Below, one piece after another: positions 1 to 12,316 of a stretch of 12,316 bases of DNA; within the stretch, counting starts at the first letter, position 1; each line of letters begins with the position of its first letter. The stretch covers positions 1 to 12,316 of the forward strand of contig JADFJB010000132.1 of assembly GCA_022566355.1 (NCBI GenBank), read 5' to 3'. The notes beneath the pieces are model-generated. The model saw nothing but the letters and a program-made list of their open reading frames with translations. It did not search any database and had not been told where the DNA came from. The stretch is from a candidate division KSB1 bacterium (lineage in GTDB: Bacteria; Zhuqueibacterota; JdFR-76; DREG01). Both the position numbers and the translations under genes were made by a program.

Positions 1-11
1 CAGAGGGTTAC

Positions 12-216
12 CTACTTTTCAAACGTAGCTATATCTCTTATATCCTTTTTAGAAATTTCCGGCACAGTCGCATTTTGTTAAGGATAGCCAACAACCAAAA
101 TCAAATAAGGCCGTTCGTTTGAGGGTCTTTTTAGAATTTTGTTGAGGAATGCCATAGGACTTGGGGGTGTGAGTAAGGCTTACCAGTCCGGCATTGTGAA
201 TGGCTGTAATTAACAT
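12..216 (-). pseudogene. C-terminal remnant of an iodotyrosine-deiodinase-like nitroreductase
   Basis: Read on the minus strand, this stretch encodes the last 67 or so residues of the same protein as the intact gene at 3631-4302 (for example [16 protein letters not shown], then [12 protein letters not shown], then NATVPEISKKD). By eye the two DNA copies are about 85% identical. The copy is broken twice. One extra base near 161-167, where the intact gene has one base fewer, shifts the frame. The TAA read from 78-80 replaces the Glu codon in the GYPEQN stretch. The normal end survives as TAG at 12-14. Homology stops about 10 bases from the stop codon of the threonine dehydratase gene, so the N-terminal two thirds is absent. 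An ATG with a GAGGATGAA leader sits at 216, but translation from it would leave the family frame after 18 residues. This is a non-functional relic. Confidence 0.9.
12..216. repeat. Direct repeat, copy A (nitroreductase 3' end)
   Basis: This is the first of two same-orientation copies of a roughly 205-base segment. The other copy is at 3631-3834. They differ by about 30 substitutions and one single-base indel, counted by eye. The pair brackets the vapBC, hypothetical, permease and dehydratase genes. Confidence 0.9.
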
Positions 217-223
217 TTCATCC

Positions 224-1186
224 TCAATTCCACGTCATATTTTGCAGCGCAGATAAATTCAGATTACCACCACTAAGAACACAAGCGACTTTGCTGCCGG
301 CAGGCGGCTTGATATCTTCAGTCAACAAAGCGGCTACGGTAGAAGCGGCAGCGCCCTCTGCCACCAGCTTGCATCTTTCCATAATCCAGGGAATAGCATC
401 GAAAATCTTTCTTTCATCTACGGCAACAATTTCATCCACAAAAACCTTACAGATTTCGAAATTATATTTACCGACTGTTTTGACGGTAAGACCATCGATA
501 ATGATAGGGATTTCATCGAGTGTTATAATTCGCCCTGCTTCGATACTGCGTTTCATCGCCGGTGCATGCGCCATTTCTACACCGATAACTTTTACTTTCG
601 GGTTGATTAATTTAACGATTTGCGCACAACCTGAAATCAGACCGCCTCCGCCTATGGGCACAATGAGCATATCAAGGTCGGGCACATCTTCGATTGTTTC
701 ATAGCCGACGCCGCCCTGGCCAGCTACCAGCAAAGGATCGTCGAACGGATGAATATAGGTCAGGTTATGTTCTTTCTGCAGTTCCAGAGAATGAGCATAG
801 GCATCATCCCAAATTTTGCCGTGCAGCACCACTTCGGCGCCATAAGCACGGGTAGCGCTTATTTTGGCTTCGGGAGCTCCATGAGCCATCACCACAGTCG
901 CTTTAACGCCAAATTCTCTCGCAGCACGCGCCACACCTTGAGCATGGTTGCCTGCCGATGAACAAATTAGCCCGCGGTCTTTGGCTTCCTGGGACATGTG
1001 GGCAAGCACATTAAGGGGGCCTCGTACTTTATAGGATCCGGCCTTCTGAAACATTTCAGCTTTCAAATAAACATCCGCGCCGGTGATCTCACTTAAGGTG
1101 GTAGAATGCATAACCGGCGTGCGGTGAATATAGCGATGTGCATTTTCACGAGCGATGTCAAAATCGGATTTCGTTAGATATTTCAT
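224..1186 (-). CDS. tdcB: Threonine dehydratase (threonine ammonia-lyase), short form without ACT domain
   Basis: PLP-dependent cytoplasmic enzyme predicted to convert L-threonine (and probably L-serine) to 2-oxobutanoate (or pyruvate) plus ammonia. The 320 residues show the fold-type II hallmarks in order. The PLP lysine is K53 in GSYKVRG, where most relatives have Phe before the Lys. The substrate loop SSAGNHAQG is at 76-84, the phosphate-cradling GGGGLISG at 179-186, VAEGAAA around 276-282, and CVLSGGN at 302-308. The protein stops after the catalytic domain, so the ACT domain that gives isoleucine feedback control in biosynthetic IlvA is missing. This resembles catabolic TdcB, although serine racemase-like activity cannot be excluded. 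The start is supported by AAGGAG seven bases upstream of ATG. It lies 34 bases after the permease gene and is almost certainly co-transcribed with it. Confidence 0.93.
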   Translation of the reverse strand: MKYLTKSDFDIARENAHRYIHRTPVMHSTTLSEITGADVYLKAEMFQKAGSYKVRGPLNVLAHMSQEAKDRGLICSSAGNHAQGVARAAREFGVKATVVMAHGAPEAKISATRAYGAEVVLHGKIWDDAYAHSLELQKEHNLTYIHPFDDPLLVAGQGGVGYETIEDVPDLDMLIVPIGGGGLISGCAQIVKLINPKVKVIGVEMAHAPAMKRSIEAGRIITLDEIPIIIDGLTVKTVGKYNFEICKVFVDEIVAVDERKIFDAIPWIMERCKLVAEGAAASTVAALLTEDIKPPAGSKVACVLSGGNLNLSALQNMTWN

Positions 1187-1220
1187 TGGCCAACTCCTTT
1201 AAACCGCTTTAGCAAAACCG

Positions 1221-2525
1221 CTAGGCGCTTTTCTTTCTCAAAAAATTAGTTACTAAATAGATCAAACTTAATAGGACAAGAAAAATCAACATTGCAGTGA
1301 GCTCGTTGGCTGGTAAATTCGACAGAAACCAGAGAATTGCAGCCGTTGAAAAAACCGGTACGGCATATCCTCCCGGAATTTTGAAGCCTCCCGCTTCATC
1401 TTGTTTGGTTACTCTGTATTTGATCACTGCAAGAACGACACCGAGGTAAATCAGCAAATAAGAGGCACTTGCTAAGATCGCAAGCTGCTTAAACTCACCT
1501 GTGCACGCAAAAAAGCATGCAAGTGTCGCATAGCCAATAATTGCAACATGCGGTGTTGAATAACTGGAATGGATTTTTGCAAGATTTTTTACAGGGATAA
1601 CATTATCTCGTGCTGCTGCGAATAAGATTCTGGGCATGTTCAGAACCATGCCGCTTAGATTCCCGAACATAGAAAAGAATGCTCCAAAAATGACAAGCGT
1701 TGCTCCAATTGGGCCGATCATATTTTTACCAACTTCCGCCAGGGGGGCATCCTTAAAATCGGCTAATGACCCACCCAACACTCCTTGTGCTGAAACCTGG
1801 ATAAGCATATATAAGGTGACGACAATGAGCATACTTAGCATAATTCCTTTGGGAATGGTCTTTTTAGGATTTTTAATCTCCCCACTGACATTCAAACTTG
1901 TTTCGGCTCCGATAAATGCAAAAATCAGGATGAGAGACACTTCGCCGAGGTCCAGTAAAGAAGGAGTCACTGTCCAGGTGAGATTCGAAGGCGAGAACCA
2001 AATCCAGCCAAAAAGGGCAATGAAAAGCAGGGGTGTCAGTTTGGCGATGGTATTAAATTTTACCAGCAGCATTCCTTTTTTAATTCCCCGGACATTTAAA
2101 TAAGCAAGACCTGTGAACATAGTTATAAAAAACAGCACTCTTATCCATTGCGTTTTAAAAACCGGAATGAAATAAGATATCGTATCGGCCAAAGCATTTG
2201 CAACAGCCGCATTGGCCATGATTGCAGCAACAATAAAAATGTTCGTGGTAATAAAACCTGCATATTTGCCAAAAGCAACTTCTATATAGGAATAGGCGCC
2301 GCCTGTAATGGTAATCTTACTACCGATTTCTGCGAAGCAAAGCATAATTAGCATAATGAGAACACCACATATCAGGTATGCCAGAATACTGGCTGCTCCT
2401 AATCTTGCCGCAACAATTGCCGGCAGGACAAATATACCTGCCCCAATGATAATGTTTATGGAGTTTGAAGCCAAACCCCAAACTCCAATTTCTCTTCGTA
2501 AGCCGTCGTTTTCAGTCATGAGCAC
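1221..2525 (-). CDS. APC-family amino acid permease
   Basis: Integral inner-membrane transporter of the amino acid-polyamine-organocation family, with about 12 hydrophobic segments in 434 residues. The unwound first helix carries IIGAGIF (about 26-32), the backbone substrate-binding motif of the family. The conserved helix 6/loop signature runs from FAFIGAE to NPKKTIPKGI (about 202-228). The start is ambiguous. GTG at 2525 lies five bases after AAAGGA, while ATG at 2520 lies ten bases after it and would give a protein two residues shorter. It is the first gene of a two-gene unit with the threonine dehydratase (34-base gap). This suggests uptake of threonine or serine, or exchange of a deamination product, but the substrate cannot be read from the sequence. 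Confidence 0.9.
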   Translation of the reverse strand: MLMTENDGLRREIGVWGLASNSINIIIGAGIFVLPAIVAARLGAASILAYLICGVLIMLIMLCFAEIGSKITITGGAYSYIEVAFGKYAGFITTNIFIVAAIMANAAVANALADTISYFIPVFKTQWIRVLFFITMFTGLAYLNVRGIKKGMLLVKFNTIAKLTPLLFIALFGWIWFSPSNLTWTVTPSLLDLGEVSLILIFAFIGAETSLNVSGEIKNPKKTIPKGIMLSMLIVVTLYMLIQVSAQGVLGGSLADFKDAPLAEVGKNMIGPIGATLVIFGAFFSMFGNLSGMVLNMPRILFAAARDNVIPVKNLAKIHSSYSTPHVAIIGYATLACFFACTGEFKQLAILASASYLLIYLGVVLAVIKYRVTKQDEAGGFKIPGGYAVPVFSTAAILWFLSNLPANELTAMLIFLVLLSLIYLVTNFLRKKSA

Positions 2526-2639
2526 AATTGTCCTTTTGCGTAAGGCAAGGTTAATTGTTTGTTTTCATATTATTTCTACTTGATTCTAATTCTGTTCTTT
2601 TCAAGCTGTCTAAGAACTTTACTGTATTTAGAAATAGGG

Positions 2640-2858
2640 TTAACATGATTTGTGTCCCTTGCAGTTTTTTTCTCGCTTGCCAACGTATTGTTCGCTTTTA
2701 ACCGGATCGATCTTAACCAGTTCGGGATCGCTGAATTCTCCCGTCGTAAGAATCACATCCGTATCGATTGTGATGTTTTGGACAATACTTTTTTCGGAAG
2801 GCGGTAAATAATAATAGTAAATGCCTACTGAACCAAGAATAAAGAAAAATAGAATCAA
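2640..2858 (-). CDS. Small membrane-anchored hypothetical protein
   Basis: I do not recognise this protein. It has one N-terminal hydrophobic helix (ILFFFILGSVGIYYYY), then an outside-facing polar tail of about 50 residues with two cysteines near the end (NCKGHKSC). Codon usage looks coding and the composition is protein-like, but the start is unsettled. The TTG at 2858 has no convincing ribosome binding site, and the nearest ATG (just upstream) is one base out of frame. The open frame continues upstream without a stop to the TAG that ends the PIN toxin at 2901, in the same frame as that toxin's C-terminal half. It could be a genuine small protein, or the tail of a gene that lost its start when this region was rearranged. 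Confidence 0.4.
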   Translation of the reverse strand: MILFFFILGSVGIYYYYLPPSEKSIVQNITIDTDVILTTGEFSDPELVKIDPVKSEQYVGKREKNCKGHKSC

Positions 2859-2900
2859 GCATTTTATTTTTAAATAGCTTGTCGTGTGAACGCAAGTTTT

Positions 2901-3300
2901 CTACACATCCTTATATGGTAGCCGATGCTGTTTTATCTCGTCCTTTAATTGTTCAAATTCAGGATCTTTATGCACGATAATTGCTTTATGTATTTGTGCC
3001 AATCCAGCGATACAACAGTCTGCGAACGACATTGATTTGCTTGCTTTAATCTCTCCTATTATTTTCGCCATATCTGGTTGTAGAGGCTGCTGTTTTATTG
3101 GAAGACCATCGATTAGATGCAGTCTTTTTTCCTTGTTCTCGGAGGGAGATATAGTAAAGTTCGATAGTACTGATTACGGAAATAAATATCTGAATTTTGC
3201 TTTCGACGGCATCAAGAAGGAGTTTTTCTACATCTTCAACGCCAGCTTCGTTCTCAATGAAAGTTAGTATTGCGGATGTGTCCAGAATATAGTTCTTCAT
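2901..3300 (-). pseudogene. vapC: VapC-like PIN-domain toxin, frameshifted
   Basis: PIN-domain proteins of this size are Mg-dependent ribonucleases, usually toxins that cleave tRNA or rRNA. The first 58 residues read cleanly from ATG at 3300, with the first catalytic acid D7 in ILDTSA and E47 in STIELYY. At the T6 run at 3125-3130 (A6 on the coding strand) the frame breaks. With one A removed the reading continues to TAG at 2901, giving a normal 132-residue PIN protein with the remaining acids D94 (SFADCC) and D112 (HKDPEF). As written, translation gives an 84-residue product that lacks both of these and should be inactive. The ATG overlaps the stop codon of the upstream antitoxin gene (ATGA). 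A single homopolymer error in the assembly could also explain the break. Confidence 0.85.
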
Positions 3301-3524
3301 TCTAGTTTGTCTTTCTGCCTTTCCTCTAGAAGAACAGAAACAAGATTTCCATTTCCGGAACCTTTAAGTTTTTTCATTACTGAAATCGTTGTTTTCCTTT
3401 TCAGTATCTCCGCATTTGCTTGTTCGTCTTCAAAGGTAACGGATAGCTTGGTGTCAGCCGGAAGTTTAAGAGAACGAAACAGTGATTTTAATTCGGATAG
3501 AGTAATAGTTGAAAGGTTCGACAT
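3297..3524 (-). CDS. Antitoxin-like protein paired with PIN toxin
   Basis: This 75-residue protein is translated just before, and overlapping by four bases (ATGA), the PIN-domain toxin gene, the usual layout of a VapBC-type operon. The sequence has a short basic/hydrophobic N-terminal part (LSELKSLFRSLKLPADTKL), an acidic centre (VTFEDEQ) and a charged C-terminal helix (LLEERQKDKLE) of the kind that wraps around a toxin. I cannot assign it to a specific antitoxin family. The ATG at 3524 is chosen because GGAG lies nine bases upstream. A TTG five codons earlier would put the start inside that ribosome binding site. A TATATT and the palindrome AAACGTTT lie upstream at about 3560-3575 and could be promoter and operator, but this is weak. 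Confidence 0.7.
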   Translation of the reverse strand: MSNLSTITLSELKSLFRSLKLPADTKLSVTFEDEQANAEILKRKTTISVMKKLKGSGNGNLVSVLLEERQKDKLE

Positions 3525-3630
3525 ATCTTTTATCTCCAATGAGTTTTGTTCACTGCAATATAAACAAAACGTTTGAAAAATGAAACTGAATCTTCACATT
3601 TGGTTCTAATAACCAGCTCCGAAGGCTTAT

Positions 3631-3834
3631 TTACTCTTCAAACGTTGCTATATCTTTTAAATCTTTTTTAGAGATATCTGGAACAGTCGCATTTTGTTCA
3701 GGGTAGCCAACGACCAAAACCAAATAGGGCCGTTCGTTTAAAGGTCTTTTTAGAATTTTGTTGAGAAATGCCATAGGACTGGGAGTGTGGGTAAGGCTTA
3801 CAAGGCCGGCGTTATGAACCGCAGTAATCAGGAT
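3631..3834. repeat. Direct repeat, copy B (inside intact nitroreductase gene)
   Basis: This second copy of the roughly 205-base segment also found at 12-216 forms the 3' end of the intact nitroreductase gene. Both copies are in the same orientation, with about 3.4 kb between them. Confidence 0.9.
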
Positions 3835-4302
3835 GCCGGTTGCAATTCCGACGGATTCCGAAGCATAGTAATTTTTAATTTTCCCGCCATCCTCCGTCAA
3901 TTCGTAACTCTGTGCAAAAATGACAATAAGGTAGGGCGCGGTTTCCAGGAACGGTTTTTCTGCCGTGGTGCCAAGCGGGGCCAATGCTTCCAGCCATTCA
4001 TTTGGCGCACGTTTGGTGTAAAACTCGTGCTCCTCCTTTTCTGCCTCTTCTCTAATTACCTTCTTGATATCCGGATTACTCACAACGACAAAATGCCATG
4101 GCTGCCTGTTGGCGCCATTAGGAGCTGTTCCTGCTGCAAGCAAGCATTGCTCGATTACTTCTCTTGCAACAGGTCGGTCGGAGAAATCACGAACCGTCCG
4201 CCGTTTTTCTAAATTTCGATAAAAATCAGCCGCACGTTTTTTCATTTCTTCCGGGGGATATTCCTTATAAGAAGGCAATGGGATAAATGGATATTTTGGC
4301 AT
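3631..4302 (-). CDS. FMN-dependent nitroreductase, iodotyrosine deiodinase (IYD)-like
   Basis: This 223-residue member of the nitroreductase/BluB/IYD superfamily is predicted to be a cytoplasmic FMN homodimer. Flavin-binding motifs are RRTVRDF (34-40), [10 protein letters not shown] (60-69) and THTP (171-174). It follows human IYD closely (AGTAP, FVVV, ETAPYLI, NAGLV, VGYP, ATVPD). It keeps the three lid residues that grip the zwitterion of the halotyrosine: E91, Y95 and K116, with the same 4- and 21-residue spacing as E157/Y161/K182 of human IYD. IYDs reductively remove iodide, bromide or chloride from halotyrosines. ATG at 4302 is chosen because AAGGA lies five bases before it. A longer frame to 4407 would overlap the upstream gene. 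It lies 20 bases after the FAD enzyme gene, so the two are probably one operon. A general nitroreductase role remains possible. Confidence 0.85.
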
Positions 4303-4322
4303 GGAATTCCTTAATTCTCGTT

Positions 4323-5540
4323 TCAAGCAAAAAATAAACGCCAAATTGTTTTTGGGGTTAAAAAATCTTGCTTTGATGTTTGACCTACCAGCATATCGGC
4401 TATCCAATCTGCAAAATATTTACTTTTGTTACAACGCCTTAGTAAAAGATTTAACAAGAGGTCATATTTGAGAAGTCGCTGCAATTTATAACTCAAACGC
4501 ATGGTATCACCCATCTCCTGCCAGACCCGATCTTGATAAACTTGAAGTTGTGATGCACTGTAATCCTCTCCTTTGCATACATCGGCTAAAACTTCAGCCG
4601 CTATTTTCCCCGAATGCATGGCATTCCCGATCCCTTCTCCGGTAAATGGATCGATGAGTCCCGCAGCATCGCCTAGCAGTATAAATCCATCTCCAAAAGC
4701 CTTTCGGATTTTGCTGCCCAATGGTAAATTTGAACCGTCTATATCGCCTATTAACCGGGCGTCGCTAAATCGCTCACTTAGAATAGATGATTTTGTAATT
4801 TGAATATGGGCTTCTTTTAAATTGATTTTCCTGGTCTTAAGCTCTGAGTGGAGCATTCCTAATCCTACATTGGCCGTGCCGTCTGCAAGAGGAAAAATCC
4901 AGAAATAACCAGGCACATAATCCTTAAGCAAATGAACTTCGAATGATGAATCAATGCCCTTTATTCCCTGGTAATAGCTCCGGGTTGCAACAACCCAATG
5001 ATCCAGGTCATGTTCCCATAAATCGGTTTTGCGTGAAATAATAGATTTAAAACCATCCGCCCCTATAACCACCCGGGCAGAATAGGTTTCGTAACTGCTT
5101 TGATTATTTGCAGCCCCCACAATTCCATTAACCTGGCCATTTTGCTGCAGGACATCCGTTACGGAAAAGTTTTCTTTCGTGGTGACTTTTTCTTTAGCAG
5201 CTTGAAATATAACATCATCGAAATCTGTCCTGCGACAAACATGGCCAATCATACCGTTGTTTGAATTTGAGCATTTTATTTCGGCTATATTCCCGTTTGG
5301 GGACGAGAGAGTAACACCATACATGCTGGACTTAGGCTTTGCTTTAAATGGTTTGACTAAACCAAGTTCTTCTAAAATGGTTAAGCATTTACCTGGTATG
5401 GCATCACCGCAGATTTTATCACGCGGGAATTTTTTCTTATCGACCAACAATACTTTTAATCCGGCTCGATGCGCATATAGTGCACAGGTTGCTCCTGCGG
5501 GACCGCCGCCGACGATAATAATGTCAAAATCGTATTGCAT
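4323..5540 (-). CDS. Geranylgeranyl reductase-family FAD-dependent oxidoreductase
   Basis: This 405-residue flavoprotein belongs to the group 2 hydroxylase-like fold, geranylgeranyl reductase branch. Motifs in order are the dinucleotide-binding VGGGPAG (10-16) with D34 at the end of the second strand, [10 protein letters not shown] (41-50, the branch signature), GADG (160-163), PGYFWIFP with NVGLG (210-228), and [19 protein letters not shown] (290-308), which contacts the FAD. Members saturate isoprenoid chains of archaeal lipids, chlorophyll or menaquinone (MenJ), but others act on unrelated substrates, so no substrate is assigned. A basic, hydrophobic C-terminal helix region (about 350-370) may bind the membrane surface. 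It is the first gene of a unit with the IYD-like enzyme 20 bases downstream. The ribosome binding site is poor (GGGA ten bases before ATG). Confidence 0.88.
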
Positions 5541-5908
5541 TTAGTTTAATCCCAATCATGAGTAAAGGAGAGTGAGGTATAGTTTTCTTATTTCGGTCGA
5601 AACAATAATCTGGTTCCGTCGATTAAGAGATTTCATTGCAATGTACTCATTAAAACTATATGGGTTTCCAATTCAAAATCAAGCCATTTTTCACTGTATT
5701 TTTCTTAAATATTTTGCAGTTATTAAATATTTTTAATAAACACAAATCCAACTTATTCCCTGGATTGGGATTTACCGCTGCTGTATTTTAATTTTATCTG
5801 GTGCTCAAAACCAGTTTTATCACTCAACATTTTTAACTTTATTTAATAATTGCATAGAAAATGAATAGTTTTGGGTTGAGTTAATTTAATAGTATTTTGG
5901 AGGTATTT
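5541..5908. other. Divergent intergenic region, AT-rich
   Basis: About 370 bases separate the FAD enzyme gene (leftward) from the secreted protein gene (rightward), so both promoters should lie here. I see no gene. There is a perfect 8-bp AT hairpin at 5720-5739 (TTATTAAA/TTTAATAA) and a 5-bp stem at 5798-5814 followed by TTTT, too weak to call a terminator. TAGTTTTG near 5865 fits the Bacteroidetes -7 consensus TAnnTTTG, but no TTTG lies at the right distance upstream, so no promoter is called. Confidence 0.5.
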
Positions 5909-8098
5909 ATGGTGAGAAATATAAGGTCTACCAAACGATCGATTTTTATATTTGCTGTGATTATGGGATTGTTTGGTTTTACAAATCCCGGTATGACCCA
6001 ATTAAGTTTGGTTTCATCAACACCATCTGATGGAGAAACCAACGTAGGTACTGTCGCCACTTTTACTTTCACATTTAGCGAAGCATTGGATACCACAGCC
6101 AGGTTTGAAGAAGGGCCGGATTTCCTTCCATTTTTGGCTTTAGAATTATATCCGGATTCCGCAGGAACGCCTGAAAATATTATAATAAGCGTTGATTTAA
6201 AAACCATAACTCTCGTAAATATGCCCCTGATAACAGACACAAGATTCTTTCTCTTTTTGTCCGGCGCCAGAAGTAGCGCTGGAGAAGGATTAGATAGGCC
6301 CTATGCTATAACATTTACTACTGGCAACAGCCTCCCAACGGCCACTGTATCCGGAACCATAAATTATACGGGCGGTGATGCGAGTGGGACGGCAATTGCT
6401 CTTTTTCAGCAGGCTCCTTTCTCAGACGATGATGGAGGGATTTTAGCGGGAGGAGTCGTGCCGATTGGATCATTTAATTTGGGGCATTTCACAACTTTAG
6501 GGACGGGAGGTTTTACTATTAATTATGTTCCAGCCGGGGAATATGTGGTATTGGCGTTTAAGGATGTCAATATGGACGGCGAACTTGAATTGATAAACGA
6601 TGCTTTTGGCGGATATGATTCGAACTCGGATAAAGTTGCCGATTTCATTACAGTTGGAGATGGAGCCACTATAAGTAATATAGACATAGATATAAATATC
6701 ATTCAAACGGCAACCGCTGGTGAAAACTCTGCTACTTCTGAAACCCTTGCGAAAACCCAAGCCGCCGACGCCGTATTAACCGCTGTCTTTGGAGGGGATC
6801 TCTCACCCAATGGGGACGGTTTGGCGCCAATCTGGAATTACTTATATTACAGTGCGAATGAGGATAGTCTTTTTAGTGTCGTATCTTTCGTAGATTTGTT
6901 TTTTCTGGATCCATTTGTGTTTGGAGATGATGGAGATGACGGCCTGCAATCTATTTTTAATACTCCTTTACCAGATAATTGGATTGACTCTGATTTAGCG
7001 GCGGATTCGGCATGGGCGAATGGCGGCAGCGAGTTTGTTAGCTCCAATCCGGATCTTGAGATTAGCGTTGGTTTGTTCAATTTACCTTTGTCTGATCCAG
7101 GAATGTTAAAAAATTCTCGAAATTGGCGGAGTAATTCCCAATATAAAGATCCGAATTATCTTAATTATTTTAAAAAAGTTAGCGCAGATACAGACACTGT
7201 TGCTGTTTGGTTTTTTTCATTTTATTCAGATTCTACTAATCAATTCTTTGGGATTGGGGTTGATGCACTCACGGGAGCAACAATAGATTTTGGCCAAGGA
7301 ACTGGGCCTGTTTTTCCAACCACAGCAATTGACAATTTAGATGCCGCCAATAATGAAGCTCTAAATTGGGCATCAGATGCTGTCCTTATTTTTGTGGGAA
7401 ATTCATTTCTTGATTTAACTCCCGATGGATTTTCTACATTTTGGTCATTTTCTTACTATGCTGCCAGCAAAGATTCAATTCGGACTTTCACAATGGCCTC
7501 AGGCTCTGTAGCTATGGCAGAATCAGCATCAAAAGATAACGCGAACTCATTGGATGCATTGCCTGCCAATTTCTGTAACAGTACGGAAGCATTAACATTA
7601 GCCGAACAAAATAGTGAAGATTTCCGCAACGTTCATCCAAACACTCTTGTAAATGCTACCTTGTCCCGGGGTCAACTTCCAGGAGATTCAGCGGTAGCTG
7701 TGTGGAAAATTTCTTATTTTTCACCTGTAGATTTTGCATCATTGGAATTATTCATTGATGCAGAAACGTGCAACATTGTCACGGATGTGGAAGAAAATTC
7801 GGATATAACTGGAATTCCATCTAAATATAATTTGGAACAGAACTACCCTAATCCCTTCAATCCGGAAACGGTTATAAGCTATCAGATTCCCCAATCCGGC
7901 CAAACCAAGCTAACCATTTATAACCAATTGGGGCAAGTCATGCGAATTCTGGTAAATGACGTAAAGTCAGCCGGCCAGTATAAGATTTTGTGGAATGGGC
8001 TGGATCAAAATGGCAACCAGGTTGCAAATGGCGTGTACTTCTATCGTTTGGATTCAAATGTTTTCACACAAACCAGGAAGATGGTTTTAATGCGGTGA
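5909..8098 (+). CDS. Secreted modular protein with Big_5-like domain, two PepSY-like modules and a type IX-style C-terminal sorting domain
   Basis: This 729-residue exported protein starts at ATG 5909, with GGAGG five bases upstream; a TTG at 5897 would overlap that site. Signal peptide 1-31 has a basic start and hydrophobic core. Residues 34-139 look like a Big_5/SbsA Ig-like domain (STPSDGETNVG, TFTFSEALD, AITFTTG). Residues 145-265 form a carboxypeptidase-regulatory-like beta module with an acidic turn (DVNMDGELE) that may bind calcium. Two related modules follow, at about 285-462 and 487-625. Each has ADAVL or SDAVL, then LSPNGDG or LTPDG, a W...YY..S..DS core, LPDN or LPAN, VAVW, and VDALTG or IDAETC, the last part resembling PepSY. 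Residues 640-729 are the sorting domain: NYPNPFNP, a GQ...L turn and VYFYRL. These domains normally direct export or surface attachment by type IX secretion. Function unknown. Confidence 0.85.
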   Translation: MVRNIRSTKRSIFIFAVIMGLFGFTNPGMTQLSLVSSTPSDGETNVGTVATFTFTFSEALDTTARFEEGPDFLPFLALELYPDSAGTPENIIISVDLKTITLVNMPLITDTRFFLFLSGARSSAGEGLDRPYAITFTTGNSLPTATVSGTINYTGGDASGTAIALFQQAPFSDDDGGILAGGVVPIGSFNLGHFTTLGTGGFTINYVPAGEYVVLAFKDVNMDGELELINDAFGGYDSNSDKVADFITVGDGATISNIDIDINIIQTATAGENSATSETLAKTQAADAVLTAVFGGDLSPNGDGLAPIWNYLYYSANEDSLFSVVSFVDLFFLDPFVFGDDGDDGLQSIFNTPLPDNWIDSDLAADSAWANGGSEFVSSNPDLEISVGLFNLPLSDPGMLKNSRNWRSNSQYKDPNYLNYFKKVSADTDTVAVWFFSFYSDSTNQFFGIGVDALTGATIDFGQGTGPVFPTTAIDNLDAANNEALNWASDAVLIFVGNSFLDLTPDGFSTFWSFSYYAASKDSIRTFTMASGSVAMAESASKDNANSLDALPANFCNSTEALTLAEQNSEDFRNVHPNTLVNATLSRGQLPGDSAVAVWKISYFSPVDFASLELFIDAETCNIVTDVEENSDITGIPSKYNLEQNYPNPFNPETVISYQIPQSGQTKLTIYNQLGQVMRILVNDVKSAGQYKILWNGLDQNGNQVANGVYFYRLDSNVFTQTRKMVLMR
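6761..7783 (+). repeat. Two related internal protein modules
   Basis: Residues about 285-462 (6761-7294) and 487-625 (7367-7783) of the secreted protein align. Shared landmarks are the DAVL start, an SPNGDG/TPDG turn, the aromatic run (WNYLYYSANEDS against WSFSYYAASKDS), LPDN/LPAN, VAVW and VDALTG/IDAET. Identity is modest, so this is an old duplication visible at protein level only. Confidence 0.65.
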
Positions 8099-8121
8099 GG
8101 TTTGTCACTTTAATTAAAACC

Positions 8122-8158
8122 AAAAGCCCGGTAGACTTTCAGTTTACCGGGCTTTTTT
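8122..8158. terminator. Rho-independent terminator between convergent genes
   Basis: A perfect 12-bp stem (AAAAGCCCGGTA with TACCGGGCTTTT) closes an 11-base loop, 23 bases after the stop of the secreted protein gene. It is followed by a run of T on the plus strand and has T-rich sequence on the minus side as well. It probably ends both the rightward gene and the leftward gene whose stop is at 8190. Confidence 0.9.
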
Positions 8159-8189
8159 CATTTCAACAATGAAAAGTATATAAGAGGTT

Positions 8190-9920
8190 TTATTCTTTCA
8201 CCAAATTCAACGTAATACCCCAGCCCTTGGGATGATGCGGCGGCCTGGAATTCCAATCGCGATATGAATGGGAACCATCGGTTTCGTAATAAACAGTATA
8301 ATCTCCCTTTTTGAGGAAAATTGTATCATTGAACATGCGATTTTTACTGGCTCCTCCGGCATGTTCGGTTTTCCTGTAAGTCATTTCCCAAACGATTTTC
8401 CCGGTCTCAGCATTCTCAATCCAGCCGTAATCATGCATACTACCGCCGCTGCCTTCACCAACGGCATAGATGTGAATTTCACTATCCTGGTCAAGAGAAA
8501 ATCTTTGCCGTTCATATTCATCGTCCCTAACCTGATCGATTTTCACCAGAACATCTCCGGCATACTCGTCTTCGTCATACTCGGAAACTTGACCAGGATC
8601 GAAGTTTTTGTCCATGGCCATTAGTGTGATTCCCCACTTTTTGCGATCAAAAGGAGCTGCCGAATTCCAATCACGATAGGAATGTGAACCGTCGGTTGTA
8701 TAATAAACAATGTAATTGCCCTTATCAAGCTGAATCACCTCGTCGGAAAGTCTATTCTTGCTGGCGCCGCCGGCATGCTCTGTATTTCTATATCTCATTT
8801 TCCAAACTTTCTTGTGAGTTCTGGCATTTTCGATCCAGCCATAATCATCCATGTCGCCGTCACTCCCTTCTCCCAGGGCATAAACACGAACATTCATATC
8901 TTTTTTCAAACTAAATCCCTTGGACTGATATTCATCATCCCGCATTCGGGTAAGCTCTACGATAACATTTTCCATGGGCGGATCTTCGTAATCATAAGTT
9001 GACGTATAGCTTGTCATTGATGGGTCTTTAGCATGAATTGTGATGCCCCAGAACAAGGCGTCATAGGGTGGAGGTGAATTCCAGCGCCGATAAGAATGTG
9101 AACCGTCGGTCACAAATATTACCGCGTAATTCCCGGCTGGCAGGGTAATAACTTCATCTGCCATGCGGTTTTTCTCCGCTCCTCCGGCGTGGTAGGTGTT
9201 GTCATAGTCCATTTTCCATACTTTTTCCCGGCTATCGGCATCGATGATCCAACCGTAATCATAACTGCTGTCATCACGGATTTCTCCTACCGCGTATACG
9301 CGCAAATCCATCTCACGGTCGAGAGTAAATCCCTGCTTTTCATAGCGATCATTCCGCAATGAATTTAATGCGATGATCGCATTTTCGTTAATTTTGTCGA
9401 GGTATTCATTAATATCGTTTTTTGATAATTGTTTACCGTTGCCATAAATGTTAATACTGAACCTTCCATATTCATCTTCCCAATCGTCCCGGTTAAAAAT
9501 TCCATCAAAGATAACATGGAGTAAATCACCTACGCCATTAATTTGTACATCACTGTAATAAGGAAATGATGAATAATAGAGTTCATATTTGCCTTTTTTG
9601 AGTTTAACATTTTCATCGAGTTCTATTTCTTGATGCCTTCGCCTTTTGGGAAAATAATCAGACATTTCCCAAACAATATCTCTTGAATCCGATTCAATAA
9701 TCCATGCGTTTGTTAGAAAAACATTGCGATTTCTTCTGCTCTCGGTATAAAACACGGTTGCTTTGATTTGTATCTCCTGGTCTTCATTTAACTCGAATCC
9801 GGAATACCTGACTTTTTCAGGGCGGATATTGTTGATTTCAACGAGGAGATCTTGTGCATTGGTATTGTGAACGCAGAAGATAAACAATAACAAAAGAAAA
9901 GGTAATATAGATTTTTTCAT
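8190..9920 (-). CDS. Secreted protein with three about 120-residue tandem repeats
   Basis: I do not recognise this 576-residue family. Residues 1-22 are a type I signal peptide (hydrophobic core, NTNAQ before the likely cut), so the protein is exported; there is no lipobox and no type IX sorting domain. Three tandem repeats cover about 180-298, 318-436 and 456-573. Each contains RDDEY or RNDRY, a YA(L/V)GE strand, DYGWI, a VW(K/E)M strand, HAGGA.KNR, TDGSHSYR.WNS and WGIT. Residues 25-160 look like a diverged fourth unit (AWIIESDS, IVWEM, ELYYSS, FSINIYG) that has lost the HAGGA and TDGSHSYR motifs. The high content of Tyr, Trp, Asp and Gly in alternating strands suggests beta-sandwich, possibly ligand-binding, units. 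The start has AAGGAGG seven bases upstream. It is monocistronic and convergent with the preceding gene. Confidence 0.8.
   Translation of the reverse strand: MKKSILPFLLLLFIFCVHNTNAQDLLVEINNIRPEKVRYSGFELNEDQEIQIKATVFYTESRRNRNVFLTNAWIIESDSRDIVWEMSDYFPKRRRHQEIELDENVKLKKGKYELYYSSFPYYSDVQINGVGDLLHVIFDGIFNRDDWEDEYGRFSINIYGNGKQLSKNDINEYLDKINENAIIALNSLRNDRYEKQGFTLDREMDLRVYAVGEIRDDSSYDYGWIIDADSREKVWKMDYDNTYHAGGAEKNRMADEVITLPAGNYAVIFVTDGSHSYRRWNSPPPYDALFWGITIHAKDPSMTSYTSTYDYEDPPMENVIVELTRMRDDEYQSKGFSLKKDMNVRVYALGEGSDGDMDDYGWIENARTHKKVWKMRYRNTEHAGGASKNRLSDEVIQLDKGNYIVYYTTDGSHSYRDWNSAAPFDRKKWGITLMAMDKNFDPGQVSEYDEDEYAGDVLVKIDQVRDDEYERQRFSLDQDSEIHIYAVGEGSGGSMHDYGWIENAETGKIVWEMTYRKTEHAGGASKNRMFNDTIFLKKGDYTVYYETDGSHSYRDWNSRPPHHPKGWGITLNLVKE
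8202..9383 (-). repeat. Three tandem coding repeats of about 356 bases
   Basis: Units at 8202-8555, 8613-8969 and 9027-9383 encode the three repeats of the secreted protein. DNA similarity is obvious around the WNS/TDGSHSYR segment (for example GAATTCCA followed by GAACCGTCGGT-like sequence in each). The last two protein units are roughly 60% identical by eye; the linkers between units are variable and acidic. Confidence 0.85.
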
Positions 9921-9932
9921 GGTCTTGCCTCC

Positions 9933-9958
9933 TTACCCTTGGATTTCCCTCAGGGTAA
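9933..9958 (-). promoter_or_regulatory. Leader hairpin abutting the ribosome binding site
   Basis: A 7-bp perfect stem (TTACCCT/AGGGTAA) lies in the leader of the repeat-protein gene. Its 3' arm ends directly against the GGAGG ribosome binding site. It could influence translation, but it is short and may be chance. Confidence 0.3.
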
Positions 9959-10066
9959 TTTTTTGAAATTACGCATTAATTTAGTTTTAGGATTAAAAAA
10001 CATCGTACTGAATACGTTTTGAGGTGTTAAATGTTACAGTAAAATGAACAAATTAAAGCAAAATAT
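9959..10066. other. Upstream region of the repeat-protein gene
   Basis: AT-rich sequence upstream of the leftward gene. It should hold that gene's promoter, but no -35/-10 pair stands out. Nothing else is seen before the nested inverted repeats begin at 10067. Confidence 0.4.
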
Positions 10067-10382
10067 AACCACGAAGAACACAGAGATCACGAAGGATAAA
10101 AATCTTTAAGCCAAGTTGTATTTTTAACTTTGGTTCTTTTAATCATTATTTTTGATAAAAAAATAATGCTTTTATAATTAGCCTGGATAATTCATGAACC
10201 TTATCACTGTCATCCAGGAGGGATCTATTTAGCCCTTTATTTTATACTTACAATTATGCTTTTTAATTTTATGGAAATAGATCCCGTCGCGCGACGGGAT
10301 GACACTTTTGAAACTTCAAGCTTAATACTTTAATTCATGAATTATCCAGGTTAGTAAATTTTCTTTGTGTTCTTTAGTGGTT
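10067..10382. repeat. Outer pair of imperfect inverted repeats
   Basis: The arm at 10067-10086 (AACCACGAAGAACACAGAGA) is the near reverse complement of 10362-10382; apart from a one-base gap and one or two changes they pair over about 20 bases. A partial direct echo (ATCACGAAGGA) follows the left arm. The arms enclose the MITE-like element at 10182-10350. Motifs of the form ACCACGAAGAACAC recur as dispersed repeats in many environmental bacterial genomes. Confidence 0.7.
10182..10350. mobile_element. MITE-like element with perfect 17-bp terminal inverted repeats
   Basis: The ends CCTGGATAATTCATGAA (10182-10198) and its exact reverse complement (10334-10350) bound a 169-base non-coding unit flanked on both sides by TTAG (10178-10181 and 10351-10354), like a target-site duplication. 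Inside is a second inverted pair: TGTCATCC plus GGGATCTATTT (10208-10230) against AAATAGATCCC plus GGATGACA (10275-10304). A perfect 20-base palindrome (10281-10300, core GTCGCGCGAC) fills the bulge of the right arm. No transposase is encoded; a full-length relative elsewhere in the genome would have to mobilise it. An alternative is a REP-type palindromic cluster. Confidence 0.65.
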
Positions 10383-10404
10383 TATAAATGTTTCCAACCA
10401 GGTT

Positions 10405-10441
10405 AAAAAAGGCCATTGTGCAAAAACACACTCAATGGCCT
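10405..10441 (-). terminator. Rho-independent terminator of the small membrane protein gene
   Basis: On the minus strand the stem AGGCCATTG/CAATGGCCT closes a 14-base loop and is followed by six T, about 33 bases after the stop codon at 10474. Both the geometry and the U-tract fit an intrinsic terminator for the leftward gene. Confidence 0.88.
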
Positions 10442-10473
10442 CTAGCAAATGCTTTTAGGAATCGTTCTTTATC

Positions 10474-10821
10474 CTAAGTTGCCTCTTCTTGGCTTTGGCT
10501 TTTTGCGATAAAGTAATAGATGAGAAAAGCCAAACCGGCGAAAATAAACATCAAACCAACCAGCGTTTCATCTGTAACGCTGCTAAAAACTTCAGGCACC
10601 ATGAGTGCCAAGCCGATACCAACCAACGCCATTCCCCATTTCATGGATGACAGAGGCTGACCGGAGGAACTCACATTGGCCAAATACTTGATGTCTTCTT
10701 TCACCAGGCCTTTGTCTATTATTTTTCTTCGCAGCCAGTTATCAGAAATAATCTTAATAATAGCCACAAAAGAAAAAAAGACCACAGGCACGATGATGAT
10801 CGGGATGAGATTGTCATTCAT
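10474..10821 (-). CDS. Small three-helix membrane protein, possibly DUF6249-like
   Basis: This 115-residue inner-membrane protein has hydrophobic segments at about 4-25, 62-80 and 86-106. A basic, probably cytoplasmic loop after the first helix (NWLRRKIIDKGLVKEDI) is followed by a Ser/Gly-rich stretch. The layout (one helix, charged loop with K/R and KGL, then a helical hairpin) resembles DUF6249 proteins, but this is from memory and uncertain. The start has AAAGGAG six bases upstream of ATG. It diverges from an ECF sigma/anti-sigma operon and carries in its leader the same promoter-like motif as that operon, so it is a likely member of the sigma factor's regulon, perhaps acting in envelope stress sensing or response. 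It is followed by its own terminator. Confidence 0.8.
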   Translation of the reverse strand: MNDNLIPIIIVPVVFFSFVAIIKIISDNWLRRKIIDKGLVKEDIKYLANVSSSGQPLSSMKWGMALVGIGLALMVPEVFSSVTDETLVGLMFIFAGLAFLIYYFIAKSQSQEEAT

Positions 10822-10875
10822 TGTTAACTCCTTTCATGAATTTTTCATTAATTTTATTGCGCCTTTTGTTGAAAC

Positions 10876-10907
10876 ATGTGACAGGGGCTTTTTAAAAAAT
10901 GTTGCAA
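10876..10907 (-). promoter_or_regulatory. ECF-type promoter of the membrane protein gene
   Basis: On the minus strand, TTGCAACATTTTTT begins at 10907 and CTGTCACAT begins at 10884, with 16 bases between TTGCAAC and CTGTCA. The AAC at -35 and GTC at -10 fit the general ECF promoter pattern. The same two boxes occur, mirrored, in front of the sigma factor gene with one base less spacing. A transcript starting about 8 bases downstream would have a leader of about 50 bases. Confidence 0.6.
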
Positions 10908-10942
10908 CTTAAGGAGAAAGTTCTTTCATTGCAACATTTTTT
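10894..10942. repeat. Inverted repeat in the divergent promoter region
   Basis: Perfect 14-bp arms (AAAAAATGTTGCAA and its complement) lie 21 bases apart, with a further TGACAG/CTGTCA pair (10879-10884 and 10951-10956) sharing nearly the same centre (about 10918). It looks like a terminator hairpin but sits between two gene starts. The better reading is two divergent copies of one promoter. Confidence 0.85.
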
Positions 10943-10959
10943 TTAGTATTCTGTCATAT
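10929..10959 (+). promoter_or_regulatory. ECF-type promoter of the sigma/anti-sigma operon
   Basis: TTGCAACATTTTTT begins at 10929 and CTGTCATAT at 10951, 15 bases between TTGCAAC and CTGTCA (17 between AAC and GTC). This pattern (AAC at -35, GTC at -10) is typical of ECF promoters and suggests autoregulation. A start near 10963-10966 would leave a very short leader containing only the GAGGA ribosome binding site. Confidence 0.6.
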
Positions 10960-10975
10960 ACTGGTGAGGAAGAAA

Positions 10976-11551
10976 ATGAATTTAGATACGAAGCCATTAA
11001 TAGAAAAGAGTTTAGCCGGCGACAGAAATGCCTTTAAAGCATTGATAGAAGCGAATCAGCGGTTGGTGATGCATGTTGTATACAAAATGGTTTCTAATCA
11101 CTCGGATGTTGAAGATATTTGTCAGGATGTATTTGTGAAAGTTTACCAAAATTTATCCAATTTCCAATTCAATTCTAAACTTTCCACCTGGATCGCGAAA
11201 ATTGCATTCAACACAACGATTAACTTCCTGGAAAAAAAGAAAGTACCTTTATTCGACGATTTTTCTCCTGAAGATGTGACACTGGATCATCTGTCCGGAA
11301 ATGGTACTTTGCCTGACGAATTCTCCGAACAGGGTGAGTTAGGTAGTATTTTGCAAGGTCAAATCGATAACTTACCTGTTCAGTTTCGCACTATACTGAC
11401 TCTGTATCATTTGGATGAAATGAGCTACAAAGAAATTGGCAAAATCATGGATTTACCGGAAGGCACCGTGAAAAGTTATTTGTTTCGGGCAAGGAAGTTA
11501 TTAAAAGACAGTTTATTGTCGAAGTACGAAGAAAAGGAATTAGTTCAATGA
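10976..11551 (+). CDS. ECF-family RNA polymerase sigma factor
   Basis: This 191-residue group 4 sigma-70 factor directs RNA polymerase to a small set of promoters. Region 2 spans about 20-88, with the core-binding and -10 recognition part DVEDICQDVFVKVYQNL then TWIAKIAFNTTINFL. Region 4 (about 131-180) has LPVQFRTILTLYHLDEMSYKEI, a helix-turn-helix (GKIMDLPEGTVKSYLFRARKLL) that should read the -35 box. There is no region 1 or 3, as usual for ECF factors. ATG at 10976 is preferred, with GAGG six bases upstream; a GTG at 10964 has no ribosome binding site and would overlap the predicted start of transcription. Its stop overlaps the anti-sigma start by four bases (ATGA), implying translational coupling. 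Control is probably by that anti-sigma factor and by autoactivation. Confidence 0.93.
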   Translation: MNLDTKPLIEKSLAGDRNAFKALIEANQRLVMHVVYKMVSNHSDVEDICQDVFVKVYQNLSNFQFNSKLSTWIAKIAFNTTINFLEKKKVPLFDDFSPEDVTLDHLSGNGTLPDEFSEQGELGSILQGQIDNLPVQFRTILTLYHLDEMSYKEIGKIMDLPEGTVKSYLFRARKLLKDSLLSKYEEKELVQ

Positions 11552-12045
11552 AGCATTTAAATGACGAACAGATCCAGAATTACCTGGATAGAAACTTCAC
11601 TGATAAAACCCAGGCAATCCTGGAACATTTAAAGATTTGCGAATATTGCCGGACGAAATTAGAGCAGTATAGAGAGATCTATGGAGGATTGAAAAAAGAA
11701 ATCAATTTTCAATTATCCGGAGATTTTTCTGAATCTGTGCTGGCAAAATTGCCTTTCGAGAGCGAGAGCAAAACTTCCTTTTATTGGATGATGGTATTAG
11801 TATTTGTGGGGATGCTGTTGGGTATAGGATCGATGTTCTTTTTTATCGATTTAAAACCTGTTGTCGATCAACTGCTATCGTTAAAATTGTTTGAGTCTTT
11901 AGCTCCTGTGGTAACCTGGCTGCAGCCTATTTTATCGGGGATAAATATCAACCTGCTTTTCTTCGCTGGGTTTTTGTTGATTTTGTTTAGTCTCGCCGAT
12001 CGGATTTTTGTGCAAAAGAAGTTGGGGATGCATTCTCTAAAGTGA
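11548..12045 (+). CDS. Membrane-bound anti-sigma factor with zinc-binding (ZAS) motif
   Basis: This 165-residue protein is the presumed partner of the preceding sigma factor. The cytoplasmic N-terminus holds the ZAS/zf-HC2 motif H27-x3-C31-x2-C34 (EHLKICEYC), as in ChrR/RsrA-type anti-sigma domains that clamp sigma regions 2 and 4. Two hydrophobic helices follow, at about 78-100 and 132-154, separated by about 30 residues that would lie outside (VVDQLLSLKLFESLAPVV). The topology therefore returns the C-terminus to the cytoplasm and leaves only a short periplasmic loop as a possible sensor. The start codon overlaps the sigma stop (ATGA), with AAGGAA nine bases upstream. No terminator is obvious directly after the stop. 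Confidence 0.88.
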   Translation: MKHLNDEQIQNYLDRNFTDKTQAILEHLKICEYCRTKLEQYREIYGGLKKEINFQLSGDFSESVLAKLPFESESKTSFYWMMVLVFVGMLLGIGSMFFFIDLKPVVDQLLSLKLFESLAPVVTWLQPILSGININLLFFAGFLLILFSLADRIFVQKKLGMHSLK

Positions 12046-12061
12046 CAAAGTGACAAAGGCA

Positions 12062-12098
12062 CCCTTCGACGGAGTTTATCTTGAGCAAGGTCGAAAGG
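12062..12098. repeat. REP-like palindromic repeat
   Basis: CCCTTCGAC (12062-12070) pairs with GTCGAAAGG (12090-12098) apart from one bulged base, around an unpaired GGAGTTTATCTTGAGCAAG. Sequences of the CCTTCGAC...GTCGAAGG type are dispersed repeats in many bacterial genomes. A tandem GTGACAAA pair (12043-12057 region) lies just before it. Confidence 0.6.
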
Positions 12099-12192
12099 CT
12101 GTTATGTAAAAAGTCAAGGGATTTTATCAGATGCCAGCAAAACTTAGGCATAGTAACTCTTTTCTTACTTTAACAGAAGCAAGTTTAAAAGA

Positions 12193-12241
12193 TTTTTTTT
12201 GAATTACTTCTCATCTAAAAAAGGAAGTGATTCAAAAAAAA
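12193..12241 (+). repeat. Long A/T-flanked hairpin in the 3' non-coding region
   Basis: Arms TTTTTTTTGAATTACTTC (12193-12210) and GAAGTGATTCAAAAAAAA (12224-12241) pair over 18 positions around a 13-base loop. The single mismatch is a U-G wobble in plus-strand RNA. Poly-T is on the 5' side and poly-A on the 3' side, the reverse of an intrinsic terminator. The rest of 12046-12316 is AT-rich with no gene seen. Confidence 0.6.
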
Positions 12242-12316
12242 TTAGATTAATTTAAAGAACAAATAACAGAACAAAACAAAATACAAACACGCTGTTATAA
12301 ACAGACATCCCTTTTC

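Follow-up and report, generated by a model that had tools for sequence, protein, structure and literature searches.

Genes and sequence elements at the divergent locus

The window, that is, the whole stretch of DNA that was analyzed, consists of 12,316 nt from a candidate division KSB1 bacterium (assembly GCA_022566355.1, contig JADFJB010000132.1, positions 1-12,316, forward strand). It contains an operon of an ECF sigma factor gene (10976-11551, plus strand) and a gene for a membrane anti-sigma factor (11548-12045, plus strand), which diverges from a gene for a small membrane protein (10474-10821, minus strand). The first-pass annotation of this DNA had described these flanking genes correctly. 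The sigma factor (191 aa) matched the Pfam families Sigma70_r2 (residues 23-89) and Sigma70_r4_2 (residues 126-176) and the sigma70-ECF superfamily model TIGR02937, all over their cut-offs. In other words, a protein of about 190 aa consists of the sigma2 and sigma4 domains only, which is the architecture of ECF (group IV) sigma factors. An ATG at 10976, with a ribosome site (GAGGAAG) at 10966-10972, was preferred as its start over a GTG at 10964, and therefore a transcript from the plus-strand promoter described below would carry only a short leader.

The start of the anti-sigma gene overlaps the stop codon of the sigma gene (ATGA). Its product (165 aa) displays an Hx3Cx2C motif (H27-C31-C34) followed by two hydrophobic segments. 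An N-terminal cytoplasmic Hx3Cx2C is the trait of class I (zinc) anti-sigma factors, a recognized class (PMC7406223), and it was also found in 67 of 119 anti-sigma ORFs of relatives. A crude hydropathy count gave one or more hydrophobic segments for 117 of these 119 ORFs and two for most of them, so that almost every relative has a small, membrane-bound anti-sigma factor. A Pfam search with the window protein matched no anti-sigma family, and NCBIfam returned a weak match to RsrA (14.3 bits against a cut-off of 62.5).

The divergent gene encodes a protein of 115 aa with a ribosome site (AAAGGAG) at 10828-10834. It was assigned to the DUF6249 family (PF19762) with 48.6 bits against a Pfam gathering cut-off of 33, and its other Pfam matches were to generic membrane families. 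An alignment of the family displays three hydrophobic helices and a conserved positively charged loop between helices 1 and 2 (SDNxxRRxLIDKG). A predicted model placed helices at residues 5-36, 42-49, 58-78, and 84-114 with moderate confidence (mean pLDDT 75.9, pTM 0.48), and a structure search of this model against the PDB gave no credible match (best E 1.1). Structure therefore gave no hint of function. Elsewhere in the same genome, a DUF6249-like stretch (G000:C81:5868-6161, L188) is broken by a stop codon and has neither a sigma gene nor the motif nearby. In one relative (L178, G007:C231:353-998), a single sigma gene faces away from two tandem DUF6249 genes, which are preceded by one copy of the promoter motif.

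A nested inverted repeat (10876-10959) lies between the divergent genes. The first-pass annotation had read it as two back-to-back promoters, with mirrored TTGCAAC and CTGTCA(T/C)AT boxes at spacings of 15 and 16 nt, and the coordinates and the complementarity of the arms bear out this description of the repeat. On the plus strand, TTGCAAC (10929-10935), a putative -35 element of the sigma/anti-sigma operon that runs into a T tract, is separated by 15 nt (ATTTTTTTTAGTATT) from a putative -10 element, CTGTCATAT (10951-10959). On the minus strand, TTGCAAC (10907-10901), likewise followed by a T tract, is separated by 16 nt (ATTTTTTAAAAAGCCC) from CTGTCACAT (10884-10876), and these two boxes would serve the DUF6249 gene. 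The inner arms of the repeat (10894-10907 and 10929-10942; AAAAAATGTTGCAA and TTGCAACATTTTTT) are 14 nt long and perfectly complementary. The outer arms (10876-10884 and 10951-10959; ATGTGACAG and CTGTCATAT) are 9 nt long with 89% complementarity.

Conservation of the box pairs and the choice of sigma factor

With the sigma protein as query, 59 genomes of the phylum were searched, and the DNA of the 29 best relatives was collected. DUF6249 was divergent from the sigma gene in 27 of these 29, and nearly all of the intergenic regions contained two outward box pairs. An alignment-based scan of species genomes added 80 further loci from Calditrichota, candidate division KSB1, Zixibacteria, Aminicenantes, and Bacteroidota, and the comparison set comprised 110 loci after removal of identical upstream sequences. 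A separate search of the 59 genomes for DUF6249 returned 39 matches over the cut-off, and 36 of these adjoin the sigma gene. Those away from a sigma gene were in two genomes (G044 and G010), both with the motif, together with the DUF6249-like place in the window's own genome. By sequence comparison, then, the pairing of an ECF sigma factor with a head-to-head DUF6249 gene is conserved across several bacterial phyla.

The box pairs are conserved along with the genes. Among the 85 divergent loci of the comparison set, the motif was found on the sigma side in 73 and on the DUF6249 side in 78. A narrow form of the motif, TGCAAC-N16/17-[T/G/A]GTC, was present upstream of sigma in 83 of 106 relatives (mean of dinucleotide-shuffled controls, 0.10) and upstream of a divergent DUF6249 gene in 72 of 83 (shuffled mean, 0.12). 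The motif pair is thus present beyond chance. Within the aligned sites, TGCAACATTT and YGTCWNAT stand out in information content and little else does. The GTC lies at a promoter-like distance from the gene start on both sides, with a median of 26 nt for sigma and 50 nt for DUF6249. A minority of loci (for example L137, L168, L194, L200, and L213) carry one strict box pair or none. The AAC at -35 and GTC at -10 had earlier been taken as the general ECF pattern, and their recurrence upstream of the sigma operon in the same 83 relatives agrees with that assignment.

The findings converge on a model in which the repeat very probably consists of two outward ECF-type promoters, one driving the sigma/anti-sigma operon and the other DUF6249, both read by the holoenzyme of the adjacent sigma factor. 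We infer this last step from comparative evidence, which likewise supports the earlier proposal that the three-helix membrane protein belongs to the regulon of the adjacent sigma factor. Part of this evidence is that the two promoters appear to change together when the sigma type changes. In family f16 (L180-L182), each side combines TGAAAC with a spacing of 17 nt and a GGTCAAAA-like -10 box. Bacteroidota genomes (L189-L203) encode a second, paralogous ECF sigma factor with its own divergent DUF6249 gene beside the TGCAAC system, and this sigma type is associated with TGTAAC on both sides and with GTCATAG- or GTCAAAG-like -10 boxes. DUF6249 proteins group by sigma type in their tree, which requires three changes, the fewest possible.

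How strong is the co-change? Among 89 loci, the two sides agreed in the third -35 base in 79 (55 in shuffles), in spacing in 77 (45), and in the base before GTC in 69 (39), in a comparison whose shuffles ignore relatedness. Phylogenetically independent pairs gave about 5 supported contrasts, of which 1.3 changed the same way, 0 changed in opposite ways, and 3.7 were unchanged, a result that was not significant. With so few independent contrasts, the co-change of the promoters amounts to a few concordant clade-level events and not to statistical proof.

A different or additional ECF sigma factor of the same genome might read the two promoters instead, in a form of cross-regulation. The own genome gave 23 ECF-like sigma matches, so another ECF could also read the sites, and an AAC/GTC core is common to ECF promoters. 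However, the motif tracks the sigma lineage (TGCAAC for the main type, TGAAAC for f16, and TGTAAC for the paralogous sigma), and strict sites are nearly confined to the sigma/DUF6249 locus, as detailed below. Reading by another sigma factor is therefore judged improbable.

Promoters, operator, or hairpin

Divergent intergenic regions commonly leave it ambiguous whether a symmetric repeat represents mirrored promoters or an operator or hairpin, and a comparison of rearranged loci separates these readings. A perfect 14-nt inverted repeat centered between two divergent genes does look like an operator, to which a dimeric regulator or a shared activator controlling both genes would bind. Such an operator is expected to keep a fixed spacing of its inverted half-sites. 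Instead, relatives do not conserve the inverted repeat as a whole: anywhere between 9 and 635 nt separate their two TGCAAC boxes (23 nt in the window by the same count). Spacing within a pair, in contrast, is rigid. Of the 89 loci with both sites, 87 have 16 or 17 nt from TGCAAC to xGTC in either pair, a tie between each arm and a GTC box that an operator would not need. Rigid box pairs separated by a free gap thus argue against a dyad operator as well as against a hairpin. The first-pass annotation had stated that conservation of the inverted repeat without the CTGTCA boxes would favor an operator or hairpin; the opposite was found, in that relatives keep the box pairs and not the repeat.

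The strongest evidence for two promoters is that the box moves with the DUF6249 gene. In one Bacteroidota clade, DUF6249 lies downstream of the anti-sigma gene in the same direction, and the divergent and operon arrangements differ by one change on the sigma tree. The operon arrangement was found at 17 of the 110 loci, where the motif was present on the sigma side in 15 and on the reverse strand in none. Within the Bacteroidota operon clade, the narrow motif was absent from the reverse strand upstream of sigma (0 of 16) and was found directly upstream of DUF6249 in 14 of 16 (shuffles, 0). It was found in none of the 16 on the opposite strand of the stretch upstream of DUF6249, and there was none in the sigma coding region. 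Displaced genes give the same picture. In G044 (L056), 2 kb and an intervening gene separate DUF6249 from sigma, yet DUF6249 retains TGCAACATTTTTTCAAATCACTTGTCTGTTT; the motif is likewise retained in the Cytophagales genome Alg240-R148 (L167/L211), at a distance of 3 kb. In G010 (L175), sigma and DUF6249 are on different contigs, both with TGAAAC (TGAAACATTTCGCC...CGTCGTATT and TGAAACATTTTCAG...TGTCTGTTT). Boxes that stand alone, with no mirrored copy, occur in front of DUF6249 genes that are displaced or part of the operon; they argue against the operator, which we consider very unlikely.

An RNA hairpin acting as a terminator or attenuator between the genes is the least credible reading: although the region gives a strong RNA fold (-31.7 kcal/mol, z -7.6), the arms stop short of either -10 box, so that they are upstream of both proposed starts and the hairpin would be absent from either proposed transcript, the G+C-rich stem with a T run on a transcript that marks an intrinsic terminator is missing, a terminator scan reported nothing at 10876-10959 but only at 10561-10609, and the hairpin could not form in many relatives with separated or single boxes. 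The two back-to-back ECF-type promoters that were first proposed for this region are, in comparison, supported by the rigid box pairs, the free gap between them, and the movement of a box with DUF6249.

Regulon, role of DUF6249, and related systems

The box pair had also been put forward as a means to find further members of the regulon. This expectation was weakly borne out: a few weak candidates emerged, and strict sites were found almost only at the locus. These regulon searches used exact patterns. The genome search proposed with the motif, TTGCAAC-N15-CTGTCA, returned a single site in the own genome, which is the sigma-side site described here. The looser TGCAAC-N16/17-TGTC gave 19 sites (8 for a reversed control), and apart from the pair these were mostly inside ORFs. 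Weak candidates among them are a secreted PF00144 serine hydrolase (C136:7938-7968, minus strand), a protein of at least 480 aa (C65:20880, plus strand), and an ABC transporter (C72:3568, plus strand). Across the 59 genomes, TGCAACATT-N13/14-GTCNNAT occurred at 23 sites, 20 of them in the sigma-DUF6249 intergenic region, and a reversed control gave 1. Likewise, 8 of the 10 TGCAAC-N16/17-YGTCTAAT sites in 17 Bacteroidota genomes were at the locus, and three flavobacterial genomes (Winogradskyella, Dokdonia, and Aquimarina) had exactly two sites each, one upstream of sigma and one upstream of DUF6249. At this stringency, therefore, the conserved regulon appears to be the module itself.

Weaker sites elsewhere in the genomes, beyond the strict pattern, are possible. 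The best lead for a target outside the module is the PF00144 serine hydrolase. Secreted, beta-lactamase-like hydrolases of this kind, in two families, are encoded in the own genome (C136, L081) and in G030 (C57, L093), and TGCAAC-N16/17-TGTCTAAT is matched exactly at 36-40 nt upstream of both genes. The parallel with G030 is post hoc and is suggestive.

The most likely circuit is as follows. The two-helix anti-sigma factor would hold sigma at the membrane until a signal, presumably from the membrane or envelope, frees it. The sigma holoenzyme would then fire both promoters, so that sigma/anti-sigma and DUF6249 would rise together. The sigma operon would thereby be under positive autoregulation, with the anti-sigma factor as a brake. 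The mirror symmetry of the intergenic region would reflect two copies of TGCAACATTT-N12/13-YGTCWNAT facing outward rather than a functional dyad.

What does DUF6249 do in this circuit? It could be a membrane effector or a feedback regulator of the anti-sigma factor. Small multi-helix membrane proteins are common among ECF targets. This, together with the generic membrane families among the Pfam side matches, is consistent with a downstream effector of membrane or envelope stress that stands outside the signaling circuit, a role that is compatible with two promoters and to which we give about an even chance. On the other hand, the presence of one DUF6249 per sigma type within a genome and the split of the DUF6249 tree by sigma type suggest, and do not prove, a partner-specific function. 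As the only conserved target beyond the sigma operon, DUF6249 is best regarded as a component dedicated to the module. A more tentative reading goes further: sigma, anti-sigma, and DUF6249 might form a closed three-part module across several phyla, whose conserved regulon would be its own genes only and in which DUF6249 would be no output but a dedicated membrane regulator, sensing or feeding back on the anti-sigma factor. Because each sigma type has its own DUF6249, this signaling role was given a weight of about one third and the effector role about one half.

A literature search found no paper linking DUF6249 to sigma factors or reporting a TGCAAC/GTC motif in these phyla; among the papers searched, the family was named only in one unrelated paper, and PF19762 is a family without a described function. 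The link between DUF6249 and an ECF sigma factor is the new information, although the group tables of the ECF Hub may already list DUF6249 as a neighbor. It provides a regulatory context for a family without known function, in phyla that are almost all uncultured and in cultured Bacteroidota, and it offers two experimentally usable promoters per genome with a simple prediction of one sigma factor for two promoters.

Several known systems resemble this locus in part. Autoregulated ECF operons such as SigW-RsiW and RpoE-RseA share the two-domain sigma factor, the membrane anti-sigma factor with Hx3Cx2C in the same operon, and an AAC-type -35 promoter of their own. Unlike them, the present locus conserves a divergent DUF6249 gene that has a promoter copy of its own, and strict sites elsewhere are almost absent. 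The nearest architecture is the EcfG/NepR/PhyR locus of Alphaproteobacteria, in which genes for PhyR-type regulators are found close to the sigma/anti-sigma operon or transcribed away from it, and EcfG itself controls the regulators (PMC7083833, PMC3892343). Here, however, there is no NepR, PhyR, or kinase, the divergent gene encodes a membrane protein, the regulon appears tiny, and the promoter is TGCAAC/GTC rather than the GGAAC/CGTT of EcfG. An EcfG general stress locus was therefore rejected on the lack of NepR and PhyR, the divergent DUF6249, and a membrane-bound anti-sigma factor with Hx3Cx2C. The ECF21 systems Das/Dma and EcfO/Reo of Bacteroidota also combine an ECF sigma factor with a membrane-spanning anti-sigma factor and a co-regulated gene set (PMC13088901, PMC13114119). 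In contrast, the present anti-sigma factor has two helices in about 165 aa and lacks a beta-barrel, and its partner is DUF6249 and not NigD; an ECF21/Das or EcfO identity was rejected on the anti-sigma type and the neighbors.

Other features of the window lie on either side of the module. A MITE-like repeat with terminal inverted repeats (CCTGGATAATTCATGAA) occupies 10170-10360, between the DUF6249 gene and the next gene, and about 40 copies with roughly 75-94% identity were found in the same genome. A secreted protein without a clear Pfam family is encoded at 8190-9920 (minus strand); it has three internal repeats of about 130 aa with the core GWIENA...KVWxMxYRxTEHAGGASKNR...YRDWNS. Downstream of the anti-sigma gene, a palindromic intergenic repeat (CTTCGAC...GTCGAAAGG) is present at 12065-12110.
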